DNA of 40,183 nucleotides from Candidatus Methanoperedens sp. (lineage in GTDB: Archaea; Halobacteriota; Methanosarcinia; Methanosarcinales; Methanoperedenaceae), in NCBI GenBank assembly GCA_023249105.1, contig JAHFDG010000035.1:1-40183 (forward strand). Direction: 5' to 3'. The notes beneath the pieces are model-generated. The model saw only the letters and a program-made list of their open reading frames with translations. It did no database searches and was not told the DNA's origin. Position 1 is the first letter of the stretch; the number at the start of each line of letters is the position of its first letter. A program made the translations under genes and the position numbers. Positions 17,146 to 23,939 of this stretch are shown piece by piece.

Positions 17146-17547
17146 GTGTTGATAGATTATTCCAGAGAAACAAAATTAAGTGTAAAGCTAGCAGTAGAAA
17201 AGCTTACAAAAGACCTGGTAGATAACAAATGGGGTGTGCTGACCGTAATCGACGTGAAAAAGATTCTTGCTGAGAAACTCAAGATTGAATATACCGATTA
17301 TGTCATCCTTGACGTCTGCAATCCCGGTCTTGCCCACAGGGGCCTTTCCATAAACAAGCAGGCTGGCCTCATTTTACCGTGCAAGATTGTGGTATATGAT
17401 GATAATGGGAAAACAAAGATTTCACTGTACAAACCCACAGTAGCATTAAGCACTGCATCATCCATGACGGGATATGACAAATTGAGTAAACTGGCTATTG
17501 AGGCTGAAGACGGTTTAAACAAAATCATTGATATGCAGGAGGAGTAA
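17146..17547 (+). CDS. DUF302 family protein, first gene of the redox operon
   Basis: A 133-residue protein starting at GTG 17146, which has an excellent AAGGAGG site seven bases ahead. The DUF302 core is visible as 'KLAVEKLTKDLVDNKWGVLT' then the strands YVILDVCNPGLAHRGLS and LPCKIVVYDDNGKTKISLYKP. DUF302 proteins form a small alpha-beta dimer; one cysteine (CNPGLAHR) lies where members bind a ligand. They recur next to rubrerythrin and oxygen-stress genes, and some are associated with redox signalling, but the biochemical role is unknown. The rubrerythrin-like gene starts two bases after the stop, so the two are co-translated. Confidence 0.75.
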   Translation: MLIDYSRETKLSVKLAVEKLTKDLVDNKWGVLTVIDVKKILAEKLKIEYTDYVILDVCNPGLAHRGLSINKQAGLILPCKIVVYDDNGKTKISLYKPTVALSTASSMTGYDKLSKLAIEAEDGLNKIIDMQEE

Positions 17548-17549
17548 AT

Positions 17550-17939
17550 ATGCAGACCGTAGAAATAATGGAAAAAACCTTCGATTCCGAATCCAACGAT
17601 ATCGCCTTATACCTTGCAATGTCACGCAAAGCAGAATATGAAGGGCACCCTGAGATAGCATCGTATCTCCTGAATGTGGCTATGGATGAAGCGCGACATG
17701 CTGCTGAGTTTGCAACTCTCCTGGGCAAGGTCAAGGATACAAGGACAAATCTTGTTAACATGCTCGCAAGCGAGGTGAAAGCGGAAAAGGACAAAGGGAA
17801 AGCCGCAAAAATCGCATTTGCCGAAGGTCATGATGAAGCGTTCCAGTTTTTTGAAAAGTCGATGCATGATGAACGCAGGCATAAGGAAGGAATAAAAAAA
17901 GTTCTTTCAAAATTGGGAAAAGGATTAAATCAACAATAA
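17550..17939 (+). CDS. Rubrerythrin-like di-iron protein without a rubredoxin domain
   Basis: A 129-residue four-helix protein. The first half-site has ESNDIALYLAMSRKAEYEG and MDEARHAAEF; the second has FAEGHDEAFQFF and MHDERRHKEG. The paired 'E...ExxRH' motifs are the ligands of the non-haem di-iron centre that reduces hydrogen peroxide in strict anaerobes. The C-terminal rubredoxin domain of classical rubrerythrin is missing, so an external electron donor is needed; the rubredoxin module of the disulfide reductase gene at 23442 in the same cluster is a candidate. A GGAGG site overlaps the end of the DUF302 gene. Peroxidase activity is inferred from family, not shown. Confidence 0.8.
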   Translation: MQTVEIMEKTFDSESNDIALYLAMSRKAEYEGHPEIASYLLNVAMDEARHAAEFATLLGKVKDTRTNLVNMLASEVKAEKDKGKAAKIAFAEGHDEAFQFFEKSMHDERRHKEGIKKVLSKLGKGLNQQ

Positions 17940-17963
17940 ACAATGATAATATGGGAGAAAAAT

Positions 17964-18368
17964 ATGGAACCTGATAAAATAATTAAAAGTATAGATAATA
18001 AAATGGGTTTTACACCTGAAATCATGAACATGATGGGTGAAATGAATCCCGAATTGTTTGAACACTATAAGAAATGTGATGACGGCATCCAGGAGGATGG
18101 CGCCCTATCTGCAAAGGTAAAAGTATTGATGTCGCTTGCGGTCATGGCAGCCCAGAGATGCGAGCCCTGCTGTGAATCCCAGATGAGAAGCGCCCTTAAC
18201 CATGGCGCAACAAAAGAAGAGATAATGGAGACTATGAATGTGGTTTTCATTACGTCGGGCGCGCCGGGTGTAGCAGCATGCAAGAGAGCCCTGAAACTGA
18301 TGGAGGGTAAGGAAGGCCATGAACATGGCAGCGGTCATGGCTGCATGGGCGGAAGAAGAAGGCAATAA
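17964..18368 (+). CDS. Carboxymuconolactone decarboxylase / AhpD-like protein
   Basis: A 134-residue protein from the ATG at 17964, chosen because GGGAG lies six bases ahead; an ATG at 17943 is possible. The CMD core is [20 protein letters not shown] followed by [20 protein letters not shown]. The CEPC motif and the histidine 10-11 residues later match the peroxidase-type AhpD active site (CxxC...H), here used for thiol-disulfide exchange. The tail is rich in glycine and histidine ([16 protein letters not shown]) and could bind metal. It lies third in the oxidative stress part of the operon and could reduce peroxides with electrons from a redoxin; that is an inference from neighbours. Confidence 0.75.
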
Positions 18369-18378
18369 ACCATAAGGA

Positions 18379-18388
18379 TTTAAATATA
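18379..18388 (+). promoter_or_regulatory. Internal TATA box ahead of the ferritin-like gene
   Basis: TTTAAATATA with an A-rich BRE-like flank (CATAAGGA) lies 51-60 bases before the ATG at 18439. Initiation about 25 bases further on would fall within the palindrome at 18396-18413. It allows genes from 18439 onwards to be transcribed separately from the three upstream genes. Confidence 0.55.
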
Positions 18389-18395
18389 TTCATGT

Positions 18396-18413
18396 TCATT
18401 GATTTATCAATGA
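18396..18413. promoter_or_regulatory. Palindromic operator candidate TCATTGAT-TT-ATCAATGA
   Basis: A perfect 8-bp inverted repeat with a two-base spacer lies between the TATA box and the ribosome binding site of the ferritin-like gene, over the expected transcription start. Position and symmetry fit a dimeric repressor site. No match elsewhere in the window was noticed. Confidence 0.55.
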
Positions 18414-18438: not shown

Positions 18439-18858
18439 ATGAGCCAGAAAATAATAGATGCATTGAACAAGGACAGGGAGGGCGAATTGAGCGCCATCAT
18501 ACAGTATATGAAACATCATTATGAGGGGGAAGGGATGGAAAGCCCGGCAATTCTTGAGATATTCAAATCAACTGCAAAGGATGAGATGGGGCATGCAGAG
18601 AAGCTGGGCGAGAGGATAGTTTACCTTGGTGGAATCCCCACAAAGAAGCCGGAACCTATCGTTGAGGGCGGGAATTTGAAAAAGATGGTACAGGATGACC
18701 TGGCAAAGGAGAACGCTGCAATCAAACAGTATAAAGAGCATATCAAACTCGCGATTAAGGAGAATGACCCGACCACGAGGCTCATGCTCGAAGAAATCCT
18801 CTCGGACGAAGAAGGACATGCAGATACGTGGGAGACCACACTCGGGATAAAGAAATAA
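18439..18858 (+). CDS. Ferritin-like / bacterioferritin-type di-iron protein
   Basis: A 139-residue four-helix protein. LNKDREGELSAIIQYMKHHY and STAKDEMGHAEKLGERI form the first half of a di-iron site, KENAAIKQYKEHIKLA and LSDEEGHADTWE the second. The glutamate and 'ExxH' ligands are all present. Members of this family store or detoxify iron or reduce peroxide. A strong AAGGGAGG site precedes the ATG, and a promoter with a palindromic operator lies just upstream, so this gene may respond to iron or oxidants independently of the first three genes. The stop is five bases before the mcrC start. Confidence 0.8.
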   Translation: MSQKIIDALNKDREGELSAIIQYMKHHYEGEGMESPAILEIFKSTAKDEMGHAEKLGERIVYLGGIPTKKPEPIVEGGNLKKMVQDDLAKENAAIKQYKEHIKLAIKENDPTTRLMLEEILSDEEGHADTWETTLGIKK

Positions 18859-18863
18859 AAATC

Positions 18864-19547
18864 ATGTTTGGAAGAGAAACGCAACTTGTAGACTGCAGGG
18901 AAGCAATGGGCCTGGGGCGGGGCGGCGGTCTTGCCCAGCGCGGAACACTTTCTGAAGCCGCAAGACCCGATGTCGTCGCGATTGCCATGACACCGGGCCG
19001 CCGGCATATCACAAAGCCAGTATGTGAGATAACGCAGGGGCTTCGGCGGGAAAGCATACAGGTTAGCGTACTTGTTCTTGAGGCAGGCGCCGGCATTCCA
19101 ATGGATGAGGTCGGAGCTTCCACTATCTCTAAAGGATATGGGGCAAATTTCGGGTTGACAGCAAAAGAGATTGAACAGATAGCAAGGCACAAAGTCGTGC
19201 TAATTAATATGGGCAATGTTAATTCTCATATACTCTCAAAGACAAAGAAAATCCTCAAGTATGTCAACATACCTGCCGTTATAGCCTGTGAATACCCCAT
19301 CGATTTTGAGGATTTCGCAAAAGTGGGTATCAAGACAAAATTCGTAAGACCCAAAAATCCTGAAACAGAAGGCACTGTGGTTGCGATCGTCAGCGGTATA
19401 ACGAGGGGCGAGACCTGTTCAAGGATAAAATTGAATGAACTGGCAAAGGAAATCAGGCAAATACTGGGTGCGAAAATAGAAGCTACCCACGCGGTCAGAA
19501 GCGATTTATTAATAAAAGAAGGACTGATGGCTAGTGAAGGAGAGTGA
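18864..19547 (+). CDS. mcrC: McrC family protein (methyl-coenzyme M reductase activation component)
   Basis: A 227-residue protein that matches McrC (COG4056) along its whole length. Landmarks are VDCREAMGLGRGGGLAQRGT near the N-terminus, AMTPGRRHITKPVCEITQGL, VLVLEAGAGIP, IACEYPIDFEDFAKVGIKTK and VSGITRGETCSRIKLNEL. In methanogens McrC is encoded in the mcrBDCGA operon and belongs to the ATP-dependent complex that reduces the nickel cofactor F430 of MCR to its active state. Here no mcr structural gene is nearby; the gene sits between a ferritin-like gene and two DUF2180 genes, next to ferredoxin-linked enzymes. ATG 18864 is used, since the family starts 'M..r.tq.vDCRE'; a start at 18828 would overlap the previous gene. 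Two cysteines and the GGGLAQRG loop are conserved. Confidence 0.9.
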   Translation: MFGRETQLVDCREAMGLGRGGGLAQRGTLSEAARPDVVAIAMTPGRRHITKPVCEITQGLRRESIQVSVLVLEAGAGIPMDEVGASTISKGYGANFGLTAKEIEQIARHKVVLINMGNVNSHILSKTKKILKYVNIPAVIACEYPIDFEDFAKVGIKTKFVRPKNPETEGTVVAIVSGITRGETCSRIKLNELAKEIRQILGAKIEATHAVRSDLLIKEGLMASEGE

Positions 19548-19553
19548 ATTGGT

Positions 19554-19766
19554 ATGAAATGTTACGTTTGCGCCAAAATGGGAAAAGATACGGATGCTGT
19601 AGCAGCATGTATCGTATGCGGTATGGGTGTTTGCATGGAACATGCAATCTATGAGGAAACGCCTGTGTGGAAAGGTGACTATCCAGTAAGGCTTGAAAAA
19701 GATATCGAGAACATGAAACGAATACTGTGTCCGCCCTGTCATGAAGCTCTTAAAGAGAACTGGTGA
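19554..19766 (+). CDS. DUF2180 zinc protein, first of a tandem pair
   Basis: A 70-residue protein with conserved metal ligands: MKCYVCAKMG, ACIVCGMGVCMEHA and ILCPPCHEAL give four CxxC-type pairs plus a histidine, enough for two zinc sites. It matches DUF2180, a family almost confined to methanogens and relatives and of unknown function. A GGAG site overlaps the end of mcrC. The next gene encodes a paralogue with the same cysteine spacing, so the pair arose by tandem duplication. Confidence 0.8.
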   Translation: MKCYVCAKMGKDTDAVAACIVCGMGVCMEHAIYEETPVWKGDYPVRLEKDIENMKRILCPPCHEALKENW

Positions 19767-19771
19767 TCGTT

Positions 19772-19993
19772 ATGTTGAAATGTTATGAATGCGCCCAAAA
19801 CGGGACAGTTGAAGAATCCGTATCTATCTGCATAATGTGCGGCAAAGGGCTTTGTATGGAACATGCAAAGAGGATTGACCTTCCAATATGGGAAGGAGGA
19901 TATCCGGCCCCTGTCAAAATCCTGAAGAAAGGTTTACCTAGATTTGTATGCAGGGACTGCGGCAATATTCTGGTGCCGGGAGCCTGTGAATAA
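19772..19993 (+). CDS. DUF2180 zinc protein, second of a tandem pair
   Basis: A 73-residue paralogue of the preceding gene: [28 protein letters not shown] and [10 protein letters not shown] carry the same metal ligands in the same spacing, and [10 protein letters not shown] corresponds to WKGDYPVRLE. The ATG at 19772 is preferred because it aligns with the start of the first copy; a GTG at 19763 overlaps the stop of the previous gene. The two copies have diverged to roughly half identity, so both have been kept for some time and may form a heteromer. It precedes the oxidoreductase genes by 11 bases. Confidence 0.8.
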
Positions 19994-20004: not shown

Positions 20005-20904
20005 ATGTTTGAGGTCAGATTTCATGGGAGGGGCGGGCAGGGTGCGGTCATGGCTGCCCAGACTCTTGCAGAAGCTGCGGTAATTGAGGGAAACTATGCC
20101 GTCGCCTTCCCGTTTTTTGGCGCTGAAAGACGTGGAGCCCCTGTTCTTGCCTTCACAAGGATAGATTCTAAGAAAATATACAGCAAGACACAGATTTATT
20201 CACCCGACTGCGTGGTTGTACTTGACGATTCGCTTCTCGATACAATCGATGTGGTAGCAGGGTTAAAACCCGGGGGTTCGGTTGTCATAAATTCCAGGGA
20301 TAAGCCAGAAGATATAGACCTGGGAATTAGCGTCAAGACAGCGGTTGTAGATGCTACCTCGGTAGCGCTTGAAATCCTGAAAGCCCCGATAACAAATACG
20401 GCTATCCTCGGCGCGTTTGCCAGAGCCACCGGGATTATTAAGCTTGAATCCCTGGAAGAAGCTATCAAGAGAAGGTTTGGCGAGAAACTCGGTGAAAAAA
20501 TAGCCGAGAGGAATTCCCTTGCCGCAAGGACAGCTTACGGAAAGACCGTTATCGGGACAAGTAAAGGGATAAAGAAACTTGAACCCAAAAAACAGTGGCT
20601 TCCGACGTATCAGGAGCTTCCGGCAGGCGGCTCTCTCATTGAGGGGAAAACGGATGCGGGTCTTATCGGTCCCGGGAGTTTTATCGAGAACAAGGTGTCG
20701 GGCTGGGCGACATTCCGCCCGCTGCGGGACAGGGAAAAATGCACCATGTGTCTTTTGTGCTGGTTTTACTGCCCCGAAGGCACCATCGTGCGTATCTCGG
20801 ACAGGGGCGACCTCATGACCAATTATGATTATTGCAAGGGCTGTGGTGTATGCGCCAACGAATGCCCTGTTGATGCAATAAAAATGGTGAGGGCGAGGGT
20901 GTAA
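20005..20904 (+). CDS. 2-oxoacid:ferredoxin oxidoreductase, fused gamma and delta subunits
   Basis: A 299-residue fusion. Residues 1-185 are the gamma (PorC) subunit with [20 protein letters not shown] and [16 protein letters not shown]. After a linker, residues 240-295 form a delta (PorD) ferredoxin domain with two [4Fe-4S] motifs: Cys246-249-252-256 ([12 protein letters not shown]) and Cys277-280-283-287 ([12 protein letters not shown]). The subunit passes electrons from the TPP site in the beta subunit to soluble ferredoxin. In many archaea gamma and delta are separate genes; the fusion is also known. The alpha and beta genes follow at once. The true substrate (pyruvate, 2-oxoisovalerate or aryl-2-oxoacid) is not fixed by sequence alone. 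Confidence 0.88.
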
Positions 20905-20907
20905 AGC

Positions 20908-22080
20908 ATGAAAAAAGTAATAACAGGCGACCATGCAGTTGCCCTGGGAGCAAAGCTCTGCCGTGTGGACGTGGTGCCGGCATACCCGATTACGCCGCAA
21001 ACGCTTATTATTGAGCATATTGCTGATTTTGTCAATGACGGGGAAATGGATGCAAAGTTCCTGACAATGGAGTCGGAGCATAGCGTGATGAGCGCGGCAG
21101 CCGCAGCGTCAGCAGCAGGCGCAAGGGTATTCACAGCGACATCTTCGCAAGGGTTAGCTTTCATGTACGAGATGCTCTATGCCACAGCGCCCCTGCGTCT
21201 TCCAATAGTAATGGTGAATGCCAATCGAACGCTCGGAGGTCCTCCGGGTATCTGGTGCGAGCATAATGATTCCATGGGGGTACGGGATTCAGGCTGGCTA
21301 CAGGTATATGTGGAAGACAATCAGGAAGCTCTTGACATGGTAATCCAATCATTCAGGATTGCAGAGGATAAACGCGTACTCCTTCCCGTAATGCCGTGTC
21401 TTGACGGTTTCGTGCTTACGCATACGGTCGAACCCGTGGATGTCCCGCAGCAGGAGGATGTTGATTCCTTCCTTCCAGCTTTTGCACCCGATATTATGCT
21501 TGATCCCGCAAGGCCGGCAATGATGGGGATTTTCATGCCAGCCGAGTACATAATGGAATTGCGCCGCCAGACTATGGGCGCTGTGGAATCGGCAAAAAAA
21601 GTTATCAGGGAAATAAACGATGAGTTTGCCAGGGTTTTCGGAAGAAATTATGGGGGTATGATTGATACTTACATGATGGAGGATGCAGAAGTGGCACTGG
21701 TCACAATGGGCACTGTAACAAGCACTTCGCGTGAAGTGGTGGAAGAACTTAGAAAAGCGGGGAAAAAAGTCGGGCTTGTGAAATTGAGATTCTTCAGGCC
21801 GTTCCCGTCCGAGGATTTAAGGAAAGCTTTGTCCGGTGTGAGCGCAGTCGGGGTTTTTGACCGCTCGATATCTTATCACGGCGGAGGGCCGGCATTTAAC
21901 GAGATTCAATCAGCGCTTTACGGTATGACCGTACCGGTCATCAATCATCTTGCAGGTATCGGGGGACGGGACGTGACAAGAGAGCAGATAATAAAAATGT
22001 TTGAGATAACGATTAAGGCGGGAAATGGTGAAAAAGTGAATCCGATAAACTGGCATAATACGCGTGGTGAGACAGTATGA
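20908..22080 (+). CDS. 2-oxoacid:ferredoxin oxidoreductase, alpha subunit
   Basis: A 390-residue PorA-type subunit. The pyrimidine-binding domain has TGDHAVALGAKLCRVDVVPA followed by YPITPQTLIIEHIADF, then MESEHSVMSAAAAASAAGAR, the conserved glutamate region, and ATSSQGLAFMYEMLY. The transketolase C-terminal-like domain II has VALVTMGTVTSTSREVVEEL and VKLRFFRPFPSEDLRKAL. It binds thiamine pyrophosphate and the CoA substrate together with the beta subunit. The stop codon overlaps the beta start by four bases. The length and domain order are those of archaeal pyruvate and isovalerate oxidoreductases. Confidence 0.9.
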   Translation: MKKVITGDHAVALGAKLCRVDVVPAYPITPQTLIIEHIADFVNDGEMDAKFLTMESEHSVMSAAAAASAAGARVFTATSSQGLAFMYEMLYATAPLRLPIVMVNANRTLGGPPGIWCEHNDSMGVRDSGWLQVYVEDNQEALDMVIQSFRIAEDKRVLLPVMPCLDGFVLTHTVEPVDVPQQEDVDSFLPAFAPDIMLDPARPAMMGIFMPAEYIMELRRQTMGAVESAKKVIREINDEFARVFGRNYGGMIDTYMMEDAEVALVTMGTVTSTSREVVEELRKAGKKVGLVKLRFFRPFPSEDLRKALSGVSAVGVFDRSISYHGGGPAFNEIQSALYGMTVPVINHLAGIGGRDVTREQIIKMFEITIKAGNGEKVNPINWHNTRGETV

Positions 22081-23039
22081 TTACCATAAAAGAATTGCCT
22101 GATGAAAACCTGTTCACGGCAGGGCATACCGCATGTCCCGGCTGCGGCGTGGCGATGTCTATCAGAAATGCCATAAGGGTATTGGGAAAGGATACTTCCG
22201 TTTATGTTCCTGCCAGCTGCGCTGTGGTTTTCGGAACCACATTCCCGTATGGAGCATGGAAAGTGCCTTTCTTCCATACCGCATTTGAAAATACTGGCGC
22301 CTGCCTGACAGGTATGCAGGCTGCTTTTGAGAAAAAAGGAAAAAAGGTCACATCGGTGGGGTTTGCAGGCGATGGCGGGACGTATGATATCGGTTTGCAG
22401 AGCATGTCGGGAGCAGCGGAGCGCAATGACGATGTCATTTATATTTGTCTTGATAATGAGGCGTATATGAACACAGGCATTCAGCGAAGCGGAGGAACGC
22501 CTTTCGGTGCATGGACCACGACCACGCCCGTCGGCGCTAAAGTCCAGGGGAACAGGCGATTTAAGAAAAACCTCGGGGAAATCGTGGCAGCCCATGAGAT
22601 ACCGTATTATGCCACCCTGTCCATCGGACATCCTCTTGATTTCATAAGGAAAGTTGAGAAGGCAAAAAATATCAAGGGATTCCGTTTTCTCCACATGTTC
22701 ACGCCGTGCATCCCGGGCTGGAAAATGGACCCGGCAAAAACCGTTGAAGTTACAAAGCGCGCGGTTGAAAGCGGGATGTGGACTTTGTACGAAGTCGAGA
22801 ACGGAGAGAAAAAAATCACATTCAAGCCCGGGAAAATGAAATCAGTCCGGGATTATTTGATGATGCAGGGGCGGTTCCGCCATATGAGCGATGAAGATAT
22901 TAAGAAGCTCCAGATGTGGGTGTGCAAAAAATGGAACCTGCATTATAAGGAAAAGGGAGCACCAGAGGTATGTGAAATTGCGCCGCCTGAAGAACATCAT
23001 GCTGTAACAGAGGAACACAGGGAGATGCACGGGCCATGA
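22077..23039 (+). CDS. 2-oxoacid:ferredoxin oxidoreductase, beta subunit
   Basis: A 320-residue PorB-type subunit. The TPP-binding motif is GDGGTYDIGLQSMSGAAERN with the matching NEAYMNTGIQRSGGTPFGAW. Four cysteines at 20, 23, 48 and 211 (ACPGCGVAM, ASCAVVFG, TPCIPGW) have the spacing that ligates the internal [4Fe-4S] cluster. Together with alpha and gamma-delta it oxidises a 2-oxoacid and CoA to acyl-CoA, CO2 and reduced ferredoxin. The gene overlaps alpha at its start and the redoxin gene at its end, so the four are translationally coupled. The C-terminal tail is rich in His and Glu (EEHHAVTEEHREMHG), an unusual extension. Confidence 0.9.
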   Translation: MITIKELPDENLFTAGHTACPGCGVAMSIRNAIRVLGKDTSVYVPASCAVVFGTTFPYGAWKVPFFHTAFENTGACLTGMQAAFEKKGKKVTSVGFAGDGGTYDIGLQSMSGAAERNDDVIYICLDNEAYMNTGIQRSGGTPFGAWTTTTPVGAKVQGNRRFKKNLGEIVAAHEIPYYATLSIGHPLDFIRKVEKAKNIKGFRFLHMFTPCIPGWKMDPAKTVEVTKRAVESGMWTLYEVENGEKKITFKPGKMKSVRDYLMMQGRFRHMSDEDIKKLQMWVCKKWNLHYKEKGAPEVCEIAPPEEHHAVTEEHREMHGP

Positions 23040-23290
23040 CGAAAATAAAACCCAGATTATATACTCTTAGCACATGCGTGCACTGCAAAGCAACGAAGCG
23101 GTTTTTAAAGGAGAACGGGATTGAATTTGATTATGTGGATGTGGATAAATTGGATGGCAGGGAAAAGGATGAGGTTTGCAATGAAGTGATAAAACTGAGC
23201 GGAAGCTTGCGGTTCCCGACCATTGTAGTTGGCAAAAAAGTGATTGTGGGGTTCTATGAGGATAAGTTGAGAGAGGCTCTTGGGTTATGA
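23036..23290 (+). CDS. Glutaredoxin-like redoxin
   Basis: An 84-residue thioredoxin-fold protein with the active site CVHC at Cys14 and Cys17 (TLSTCVHCKATKRFL), a central strand IEFDYVDVDKLDG and the cis-proline region LRFPTIVVGKKVIVGF. This resembles NrdH/glutaredoxin-like proteins of methanogens, which supply electrons to ribonucleotide reductase and other enzymes. The gene overlaps the PorB stop by four bases (ATGA). Downstream, beyond a palindromic repeat, lies a ferredoxin:disulfide reductase that is the natural reductant of such redoxins. The active-site pair is complete, so it should be functional. Confidence 0.85.
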   Translation: MTKIKPRLYTLSTCVHCKATKRFLKENGIEFDYVDVDKLDGREKDEVCNEVIKLSGSLRFPTIVVGKKVIVGFYEDKLREALGL

Positions 23291-23441: not shown

Positions 23442-23939
23442 ATGAGAACAGTTGCTGAGATGTTCACCGAGATGAAGAAAATTGCAGATGAGGAAGGCTA
23501 CCAGTTCAACCCAAACAAAGATGAACTTAATGATATCCTTCAGGGAATATGGGATAACGAGCATCGCTATGGTTATCCGTCATGCCCCTGCCGTATCGCA
23601 GGCGGCGCGCTGGCGGACGACATGGATATCATCTGCCCGTGCAACTACCGGGACGCCGATATCGAAGAGTTCGGATGCTGCCTGTGTACGCTGTATGTGA
23701 ATGATGAATGGATTTCTGGAAGGAAGCCGCATGAACCGATACCGGAGCGGCGTCCAAAGGAGTATTATGAGAAGGGTTGTCCGGCTATGATGGAACAGAA
23801 AGGTGCAGGAGGAAAAGAAATGGCTGAAGTTTACAGGTGTACTGTTTGCGGTTATCTCTGCGCAAGGGATGAGCCGCCTGACCTTTGCCCGATTTGCAGG
23901 GCGAAGAAGGAACGGTTTGAGAAGTTTGAGATGAAGTAA
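23442..23939 (+). CDS. Ferredoxin:disulfide (thioredoxin) reductase catalytic subunit fused to rubredoxin
   Basis: A 165-residue fusion. Residues 1-100 are the FTR catalytic fold with its CPC (48-50), CPC (65-67) and CLC (80-82) motifs that hold the [4Fe-4S] cluster and the redox-active disulfide. Residues 127-165 are a small rubredoxin with [10 protein letters not shown] and LCPICRAK (Cys133/136/149/152). Methanosarcina ferredoxin:disulfide reductases carry this same fusion and reduce redoxins with ferredoxin electrons. The start uses GGTGAGG, the end of the preceding repeat, as ribosome binding site. Before Met127 (base 23820) an AGGAGG seven bases ahead would allow internal initiation of the rubredoxin alone. 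The last 153 bases are duplicated at 26431-26583. Confidence 0.88.
   Translation: MRTVAEMFTEMKKIADEEGYQFNPNKDELNDILQGIWDNEHRYGYPSCPCRIAGGALADDMDIICPCNYRDADIEEFGCCLCTLYVNDEWISGRKPHEPIPERRPKEYYEKGCPAMMEQKGAGGKEMAEVYRCTVCGYLCARDEPPDLCPICRAKKERFEKFEMK
23787..23939 (+). repeat. Direct repeat, proximal copy (3' end of the disulfide reductase gene)
   Basis: The last 51 codons of the reductase gene, from Met116 to the stop. Compared with 26431-26583 there are seven base differences in 153 and no gaps. The two copies bracket a 2.5 kb segment with five accessory genes. Confidence 0.9.

Follow-up and report, generated by a model that had tools for sequence, protein, structure and literature searches.

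The locus analyzed here raises the question of why the gene for McrC, a subunit of the MCR activation complex, lies away from the mcr operon among genes for iron, oxidant and ferredoxin chemistry, and whether those neighbors might help to bring MCR back to activity. The window, that is, the whole 40,183-nucleotide stretch of DNA that was analyzed, is contig C122 of a 3.28-Mb Ca. Methanoperedens genome that is 99.7% complete; relatives compared include M. nitroreducens ANME-2d and BLZ2 (Candidatus Methanoperedens). An earlier note had placed mcrC outside the mcr operon, behind a ferritin-like gene and ahead of two DUF2180 genes and a "ferredoxin-reducing oxidoreductase". Position and neighbors are borne out: mcrB-D-G-A is on C128 and mcrC on C122, and the ferritin is a 139-aa mini-bacterioferritin. 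The oxidoreductase is present as well, and is actually a pyruvate/2-oxoacid:ferredoxin oxidoreductase (PorCD-PorA-PorB), followed by a glutaredoxin and a ferredoxin:thioredoxin reductase (FTR)-rubredoxin protein, FDR. Features of the cluster are as follows.

17146..17547, + strand: DUF302 protein (PF03625; present in 14 of 30 loci)
17550..17939, + strand: rubrerythrin-like ferritin-fold protein (PF02915; present in 20 of 30 loci)
17943..18368, + strand: carboxymuconolactone decarboxylase/AhpD-like protein, CMD (PF02627; ahead of mbfr/mcrC in almost every locus)
18379..18390, + strand: TATA-like element TTTAAATATATT of the putative mbfr-mcrC promoter, from the sequence of the CMD-mbfr gap
18397..18412, no strand: inverted repeat CATTGATTTATCAATG, CATTGAT-TT-ATCAATG, 16 bp, candidate operator in the CMD-mbfr gap
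18439..18858, + strand: mbfr, mini-bacterioferritin, 139 aa (257 bits to 9qq4, a Methanoperedens mini-bacterioferritin)
18864..19547, + strand: mcrC, MCR activation complex subunit McrC, 227 aa (TIGR03264 match, ligands, PDB 8s7v_I)
19554..19766, + strand: DUF2180a, 70-aa Cys/His-rich protein (PF09947, 113 bits; invariant Cys/His pattern)
19772..19993, + strand: DUF2180b (PF09947, 94.6 bits)
20005..20904, + strand: porCD, fused gamma and delta subunits of 2-oxoacid:ferredoxin oxidoreductase with two [4Fe-4S] motifs (POR, PorC_KorC, PorD_KorD)
20908..22080, + strand: porA, alpha subunit (PDB 9bt4, 354 bits; YPITPQT motif)
22077..23039, + strand: porB, beta subunit (4-bp overlap with porA; GDGG...DNEAYMN TPP-type motif; homologous to canonical PorB)
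23036..23290, + strand: grx, glutaredoxin with CVHC (PF00462; 4-bp overlap with porB)
23442..23939, + strand: fdr, FTR catalytic domain plus rubredoxin-like domain (PF02943, PF21349)

The mcrC reading frame is complete, from an ATG at 18864 to a stop codon ending at 19547, and its product passes the curated threshold of the McrC equivalog TIGR03264 (291.9 bits against a cut-off of 213.5). The nearest solved structure is 8s7v, McrC of the Methanococcus maripaludis activation complex (230 bits). Two iron-sulfur clusters on M. maripaludis McrC are held by C12, H49, C55 and H118 (PMC12176620); the corresponding window residues C11, H48, C54 and H122 are invariant in an alignment of 24 McrC proteins, and a degenerate mcrC copy is ruled out by these four intact ligands. 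PF04609 matches the window McrC weakly (27.2 bits), the top match of the genome being Mmp7. Across the whole genome this profile finds two matches, the window mcrC and Mmp7 on contig C34, and no second, canonical mcrC; the gene is single-copy in all 24 genus genomes searched. A C-terminal tail, THAVRSDLLIxEGL (window 19467-19547), is kept across McrC of the genus and is missing from the aligned ANME-2 and Methanosarcinaceae proteins; it is a possible lineage-specific docking element.

The mcr operon on C128 consists of mcrB-D-G-A with a 55-bp mcrD-mcrG gap and without mcrC, and mcrB-D-G-A without mcrC was found at five more Methanoperedens mcr loci. In M. nitroreducens, where the displaced gene has already been published (mcrBDGA, ANME2D_00875; PMC9081873), 207 kb separate mcrC from mcrA on a single 546-kb contig. 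The other activation genes form a separate operon on C34 (mmp7-mmp17-mmp15-mmp5-mmp6-mmp3-atwA), and Mmp7, Mmp17, Mmp3 and A2 genes are not found in the redox operon. No mcrC was found on viral or Borg-like contigs. At one contig start (L035:1-1800; contig C55, genome G001), the last 67 mcrA codons and a transposase-like remnant lie upstream of CMD-mbfr-mcrC; mcr may adjoin the redox operon in that species, or this may be an assembly join.

Across 30 Methanoperedenaceae loci, some of which lack individual genes or are cut by contig ends, the cluster order is (DUF302)-(rubrerythrin-like)-CMD-[promoter gap]-mbfr-mcrC-DUF2180a-DUF2180b-porCD-porA-porB-grx-fdr, and mcrC is inside the cluster at every one of the 30. 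Spacing from mbfr to fdr is mostly 1-12 bp gaps or 4-bp overlaps; in the window mbfr ends 5 bp upstream of mcrC, and the grx-fdr gap is 151 bp, so a separate promoter for fdr is possible in the window. The cluster cannot be put down to general synteny, because the genes immediately outside it in the window are common to just 0-2 of 19-20 loci. In two early-branching loci, L181 and L183, mbfr is missing and mcrC is the first gene after the promoter gap; since it heads the operon there, mcrC is a core member. Both DUF2180 genes are missing in one genome. In M. nitroreducens and isolate BE2012 the por genes are missing from the operon while mcrC-DUF2180-grx-fdr is retained, and the rest of the M. 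nitroreducens genome yielded no Por of the operon type; Por is therefore dispensable and cannot be an obligate donor.

Outside the family, the Methanoperedens-type linkage was found at none of 54 non-Methanoperedens mcrC loci, nor in the relatives of families f2-f5, and among the lineages checked only the Methanoperedenaceae have it. The checked loci of ANME-2 and Methanosarcinaceae, like families f2, f3 and f5, have mcrC within mcrBDCGA. Methanothrix mcrC is off-operon beside a phosphoglycerate mutase-like gene and without functional neighbors; in a family taken to be ethane oxidizers it is off-operon without the Methanoperedens operon neighbors. Family f4 carries an off-operon mcrC without functional neighbors, encoding a McrC of about 262 aa (L059:9442-10227, L062, L065, L069), and the L059 protein was confirmed to carry a fused C-terminal DUF2098 domain. 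Methanoperedens has a DUF2098 gene too, immediately ahead of mcrB (L034:6843-7151). In family f10 the off-operon mcrC adjoins the A2 (AtwA) gene (L283:7301-9687), so a displaced mcrC can travel with activation partners. We infer the lineage names of f4, f5 and f10, and take the family with mcrC beside A2 to be Syntropharchaeia. A mcrC-por linkage in family f7 was ruled out, the two being 150 kb apart on the same contig.

Overall, we conclude that the window mcrC is the sole mcrC of its genome and probably functional, and that it has left the mcr operon for a putative redox-recovery operon found only in the Methanoperedenaceae among the lineages checked. Its regulation may be dedicated. In the gap between CMD and mbfr, the candidate operator recurs at the same place with at least 13 of 14 positions matched in 18 of 28 promoters (against 0.0001 for random 110-mers), a tally of related loci and so not an independent count. 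The repeat is not universal, being absent from L181, L183 and several other loci. The exact 15-base repeat pattern occurs in the 3.28-Mb genome only at the mbfr-mcrC promoter, which suggests dedicated regulation of the operon.

The Por encoded by the operon is a full enzyme (alpha, beta and fused gamma-delta, with TPP and [4Fe-4S] motifs; span 20005-23039) and a second one for this genome, which has its canonical, unfused Por on contig C95; nearly all genus genomes likewise encode a canonical Por elsewhere. In a PorA tree limited to one archaeal phylum, the operon PorA forms its own clade apart from canonical PorA (support 94/93), by which a recent duplication of the canonical Por is ruled out within that sampling. 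Among the genus genomes searched, this extra clade occurs only at the operon position. That the operon enzyme is extra to the canonical biosynthetic Por, and falls in a different clade, speaks for a dedicated role. PorA carries YPITPQT, the motif of pyruvate enzymes, its closest PDB entry is a PFOR, and it scores 499.6 bits against the PorA_Arch equivalog, below the cut-off of 550. The motif argues against an enzyme of the oxalate oxidoreductase type (YPITPQT versus YPIRPYT).

Among the other members, the mini-bacterioferritin has all of its ferroxidase (diiron) residues (E16, E49, H52, E91, E124 and H127), and in the BLZ2 locus (L163) the gene for the crystallized 9qq4 protein lies directly upstream of mcrC. 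The 9qq4 protein is a 12-mer that binds coproheme (PMC13168243), and the window protein is highly similar to it in sequence; the text of that paper was found to mention neither mcrC nor an operon. FDR has both domains, FTR catalytic and rubredoxin, with their Cys motifs (PDB 4tpu, 160 bits; 7pwe, 111 bits). The related chain 7pwe has a CGFC-bearing part N-terminal to its FTR domain, as would fit a joint action of grx and fdr. The AlphaFold model of DUF2180a has a pLDDT of 88; a search against PDB folds returned no match with E <= 0.001, and no work on DUF2180 was found among the papers searched. In some Methanoperedens and ANME-2 genomes a third DUF2180 copy is flanked on one side by a gene for a ~498-aa protein and on the other by an aquaporin-like gene (L149:9014-9214, L150, L151, L140).

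Taken together, a sole mcrC in a conserved iron-storage and electron-supply operon suggests a coupling between MCR start-up and recovery after damage by oxidants. Oxidant or iron stress would induce the operon from the mbfr promoter; the mini-bacterioferritin and the upstream rubrerythrin and CMD products would handle iron and peroxide; and the extra Por could oxidize pyruvate to yield reduced ferredoxin without need for MCR, a share of these electrons passing through FDR and glutaredoxin to thiols. McrC, co-produced, would act with the Mmp7/17/3-A2 machinery encoded elsewhere in reducing inactive Ni(II)-F430 in MCR again, and re-activation would thus be possible when MCR cannot itself deliver reductant. 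Por-derived ferredoxin might feed the McrC complex directly, or the operon might merely share a stress signal. Ferredoxin has been proposed as a physiological donor for MCR activation, and the purified activation complex needs Ti(III) citrate, with DTT ineffective and auxiliary proteins suspected (PMC12176620). Against recovery, we count the lack of por in the operon of M. nitroreducens and BE2012 and of DUF2180 in one genome, the separate operon for Mmp7, Mmp17, Mmp3 and A2, the missing linkage outside the Methanoperedenaceae, and a salt-stress transcript study in which mcrC is not mentioned (PMC11337218). A literature search on Methanoperedens oxygen stress with rubrerythrin found nothing. 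We give a little less than an even chance to an operon that couples MCR re-activation to oxidant and iron handling, with an MCR-independent supply of ferredoxin and thiols. We consider quite unlikely the stronger version, a dedicated, singly regulated restart operon whose Por came by horizontal transfer and provides McrC with ferredoxin electrons independently of MCR, FDR/glutaredoxin and the DUF2180 proteins serving as adaptors.

The earlier note had asked about a second mcrC, and none is present, the conserved residues of this one being intact. The linkage that it had proposed to look for, with DUF2180, por and fdr, is conserved in the Methanoperedenaceae and absent from the other ANME and Methanosarcinales lineages checked. 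Its suggestion of an electron supply for activation or repair is partly supported: the intact sole mcrC and the conserved linkage speak for it, and an obligate Por donor falls with M. nitroreducens and BE2012.

The main rival of the recovery reading is that a displaced mcrC came under a strong housekeeping iron/redox promoter and was kept there simply because it is adequately expressed, without mechanistic link to Por or FDR. We regard this as rather unlikely. In its favor, the off-operon genes of Methanothrix and family f4 have no functional neighbors, two of the five ferritin-like proteins of the mini-bacterioferritin archaeon are highly expressed (PMC13168243), and the operon can lose Por while mcrC remains. 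Such a capture does not readily account for an order and near-zero spacing kept in 30 loci despite rearranged surroundings, for the place of mcrC at or near the head of the operon, or for an extra Por clade that occurs only at this position in the genus genomes searched.

A role in iron-sulfur supply, in which mbfr iron and a Grx/FDR thiol or Fe-S carrier would serve the nitrogenase-like [8Fe-9S-C] clusters of McrC rather than bring electrons to F430, appears improbable. Of the three such clusters in the M. maripaludis complex, which has about 27 Fe, two are bound by McrC (PMC12176620); mbfr immediately precedes mcrC in most loci, and Grx has a dithiol CVHC motif. Against this reading, the early-branching L181 and L183 have no mbfr in the operon, por would be unexplained, and the cluster showed neither a NifB nor a scaffold gene. 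The weak PF04609 score could hint at a divergent McrC/Mmp7 paralogue or a chimeric contig. This artifact is refuted by the TIGR03264 score far above cut-off and the invariant ligands, and by recurrence of the arrangement in independently assembled genomes, including the 546-kb M. nitroreducens contig.

The off-operon mcrC of M. nitroreducens and the ferritin crystal structure were already known, while no published report of the mbfr-mcrC-DUF2180-por-grx-fdr operon was found in the literature. Which physiological donor supplies the electrons for MCR activation is unsettled, and the operon names candidates in Por, FDR, Grx and DUF2180a/b; a restart operon, if real, would answer where a methanotroph obtains electrons for MCR re-activation in vivo. 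The cluster further points to a possible way for a nitrate-linked methanotroph, when it meets oxidants, to bring its oxygen-sensitive key enzyme back into action, and gives context to four uncharacterized proteins (DUF2180a/b, CMD and DUF302).

Compared with the methanogen mcrBDCGA operon, all five genes are present in the Methanoperedens genome, but mcrC is gone from the slot between mcrD and mcrG. The M. maripaludis activation complex has a McrC of the same family with the same four ligands, and homologues of its Mmp7, Mmp17, Mmp3 and A2 are encoded on C34; Methanoperedens McrC differs from its M. maripaludis counterpart in being encoded inside a redox operon and in its genus-conserved C-terminal tail. 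That tail is missing from the other Methanosarcinales compared, and McrC of family f4 has a different, longer one. The window mini-bacterioferritin equals Mper-mBfr (PDB 9qq4; PMC13168243) in length and in ferroxidase residues. FDR is similar to the Methanosarcina acetivorans enzyme 4tpu. In Methanosarcinaceae, a DUF2180 pair and CMD lie beside a multihaem cytochrome, FMN reductase, FNR-like protein, rubrerythrin and flavoprotein, in what we take to be the MA3739-type cluster. The DUF2180 pair, the CMD gene and the redox setting are shared with the Methanoperedens operon, whereas mcrC, por, grx and fdr are absent; the DUF2180-CMD module thus has a redox context also without mcrC.
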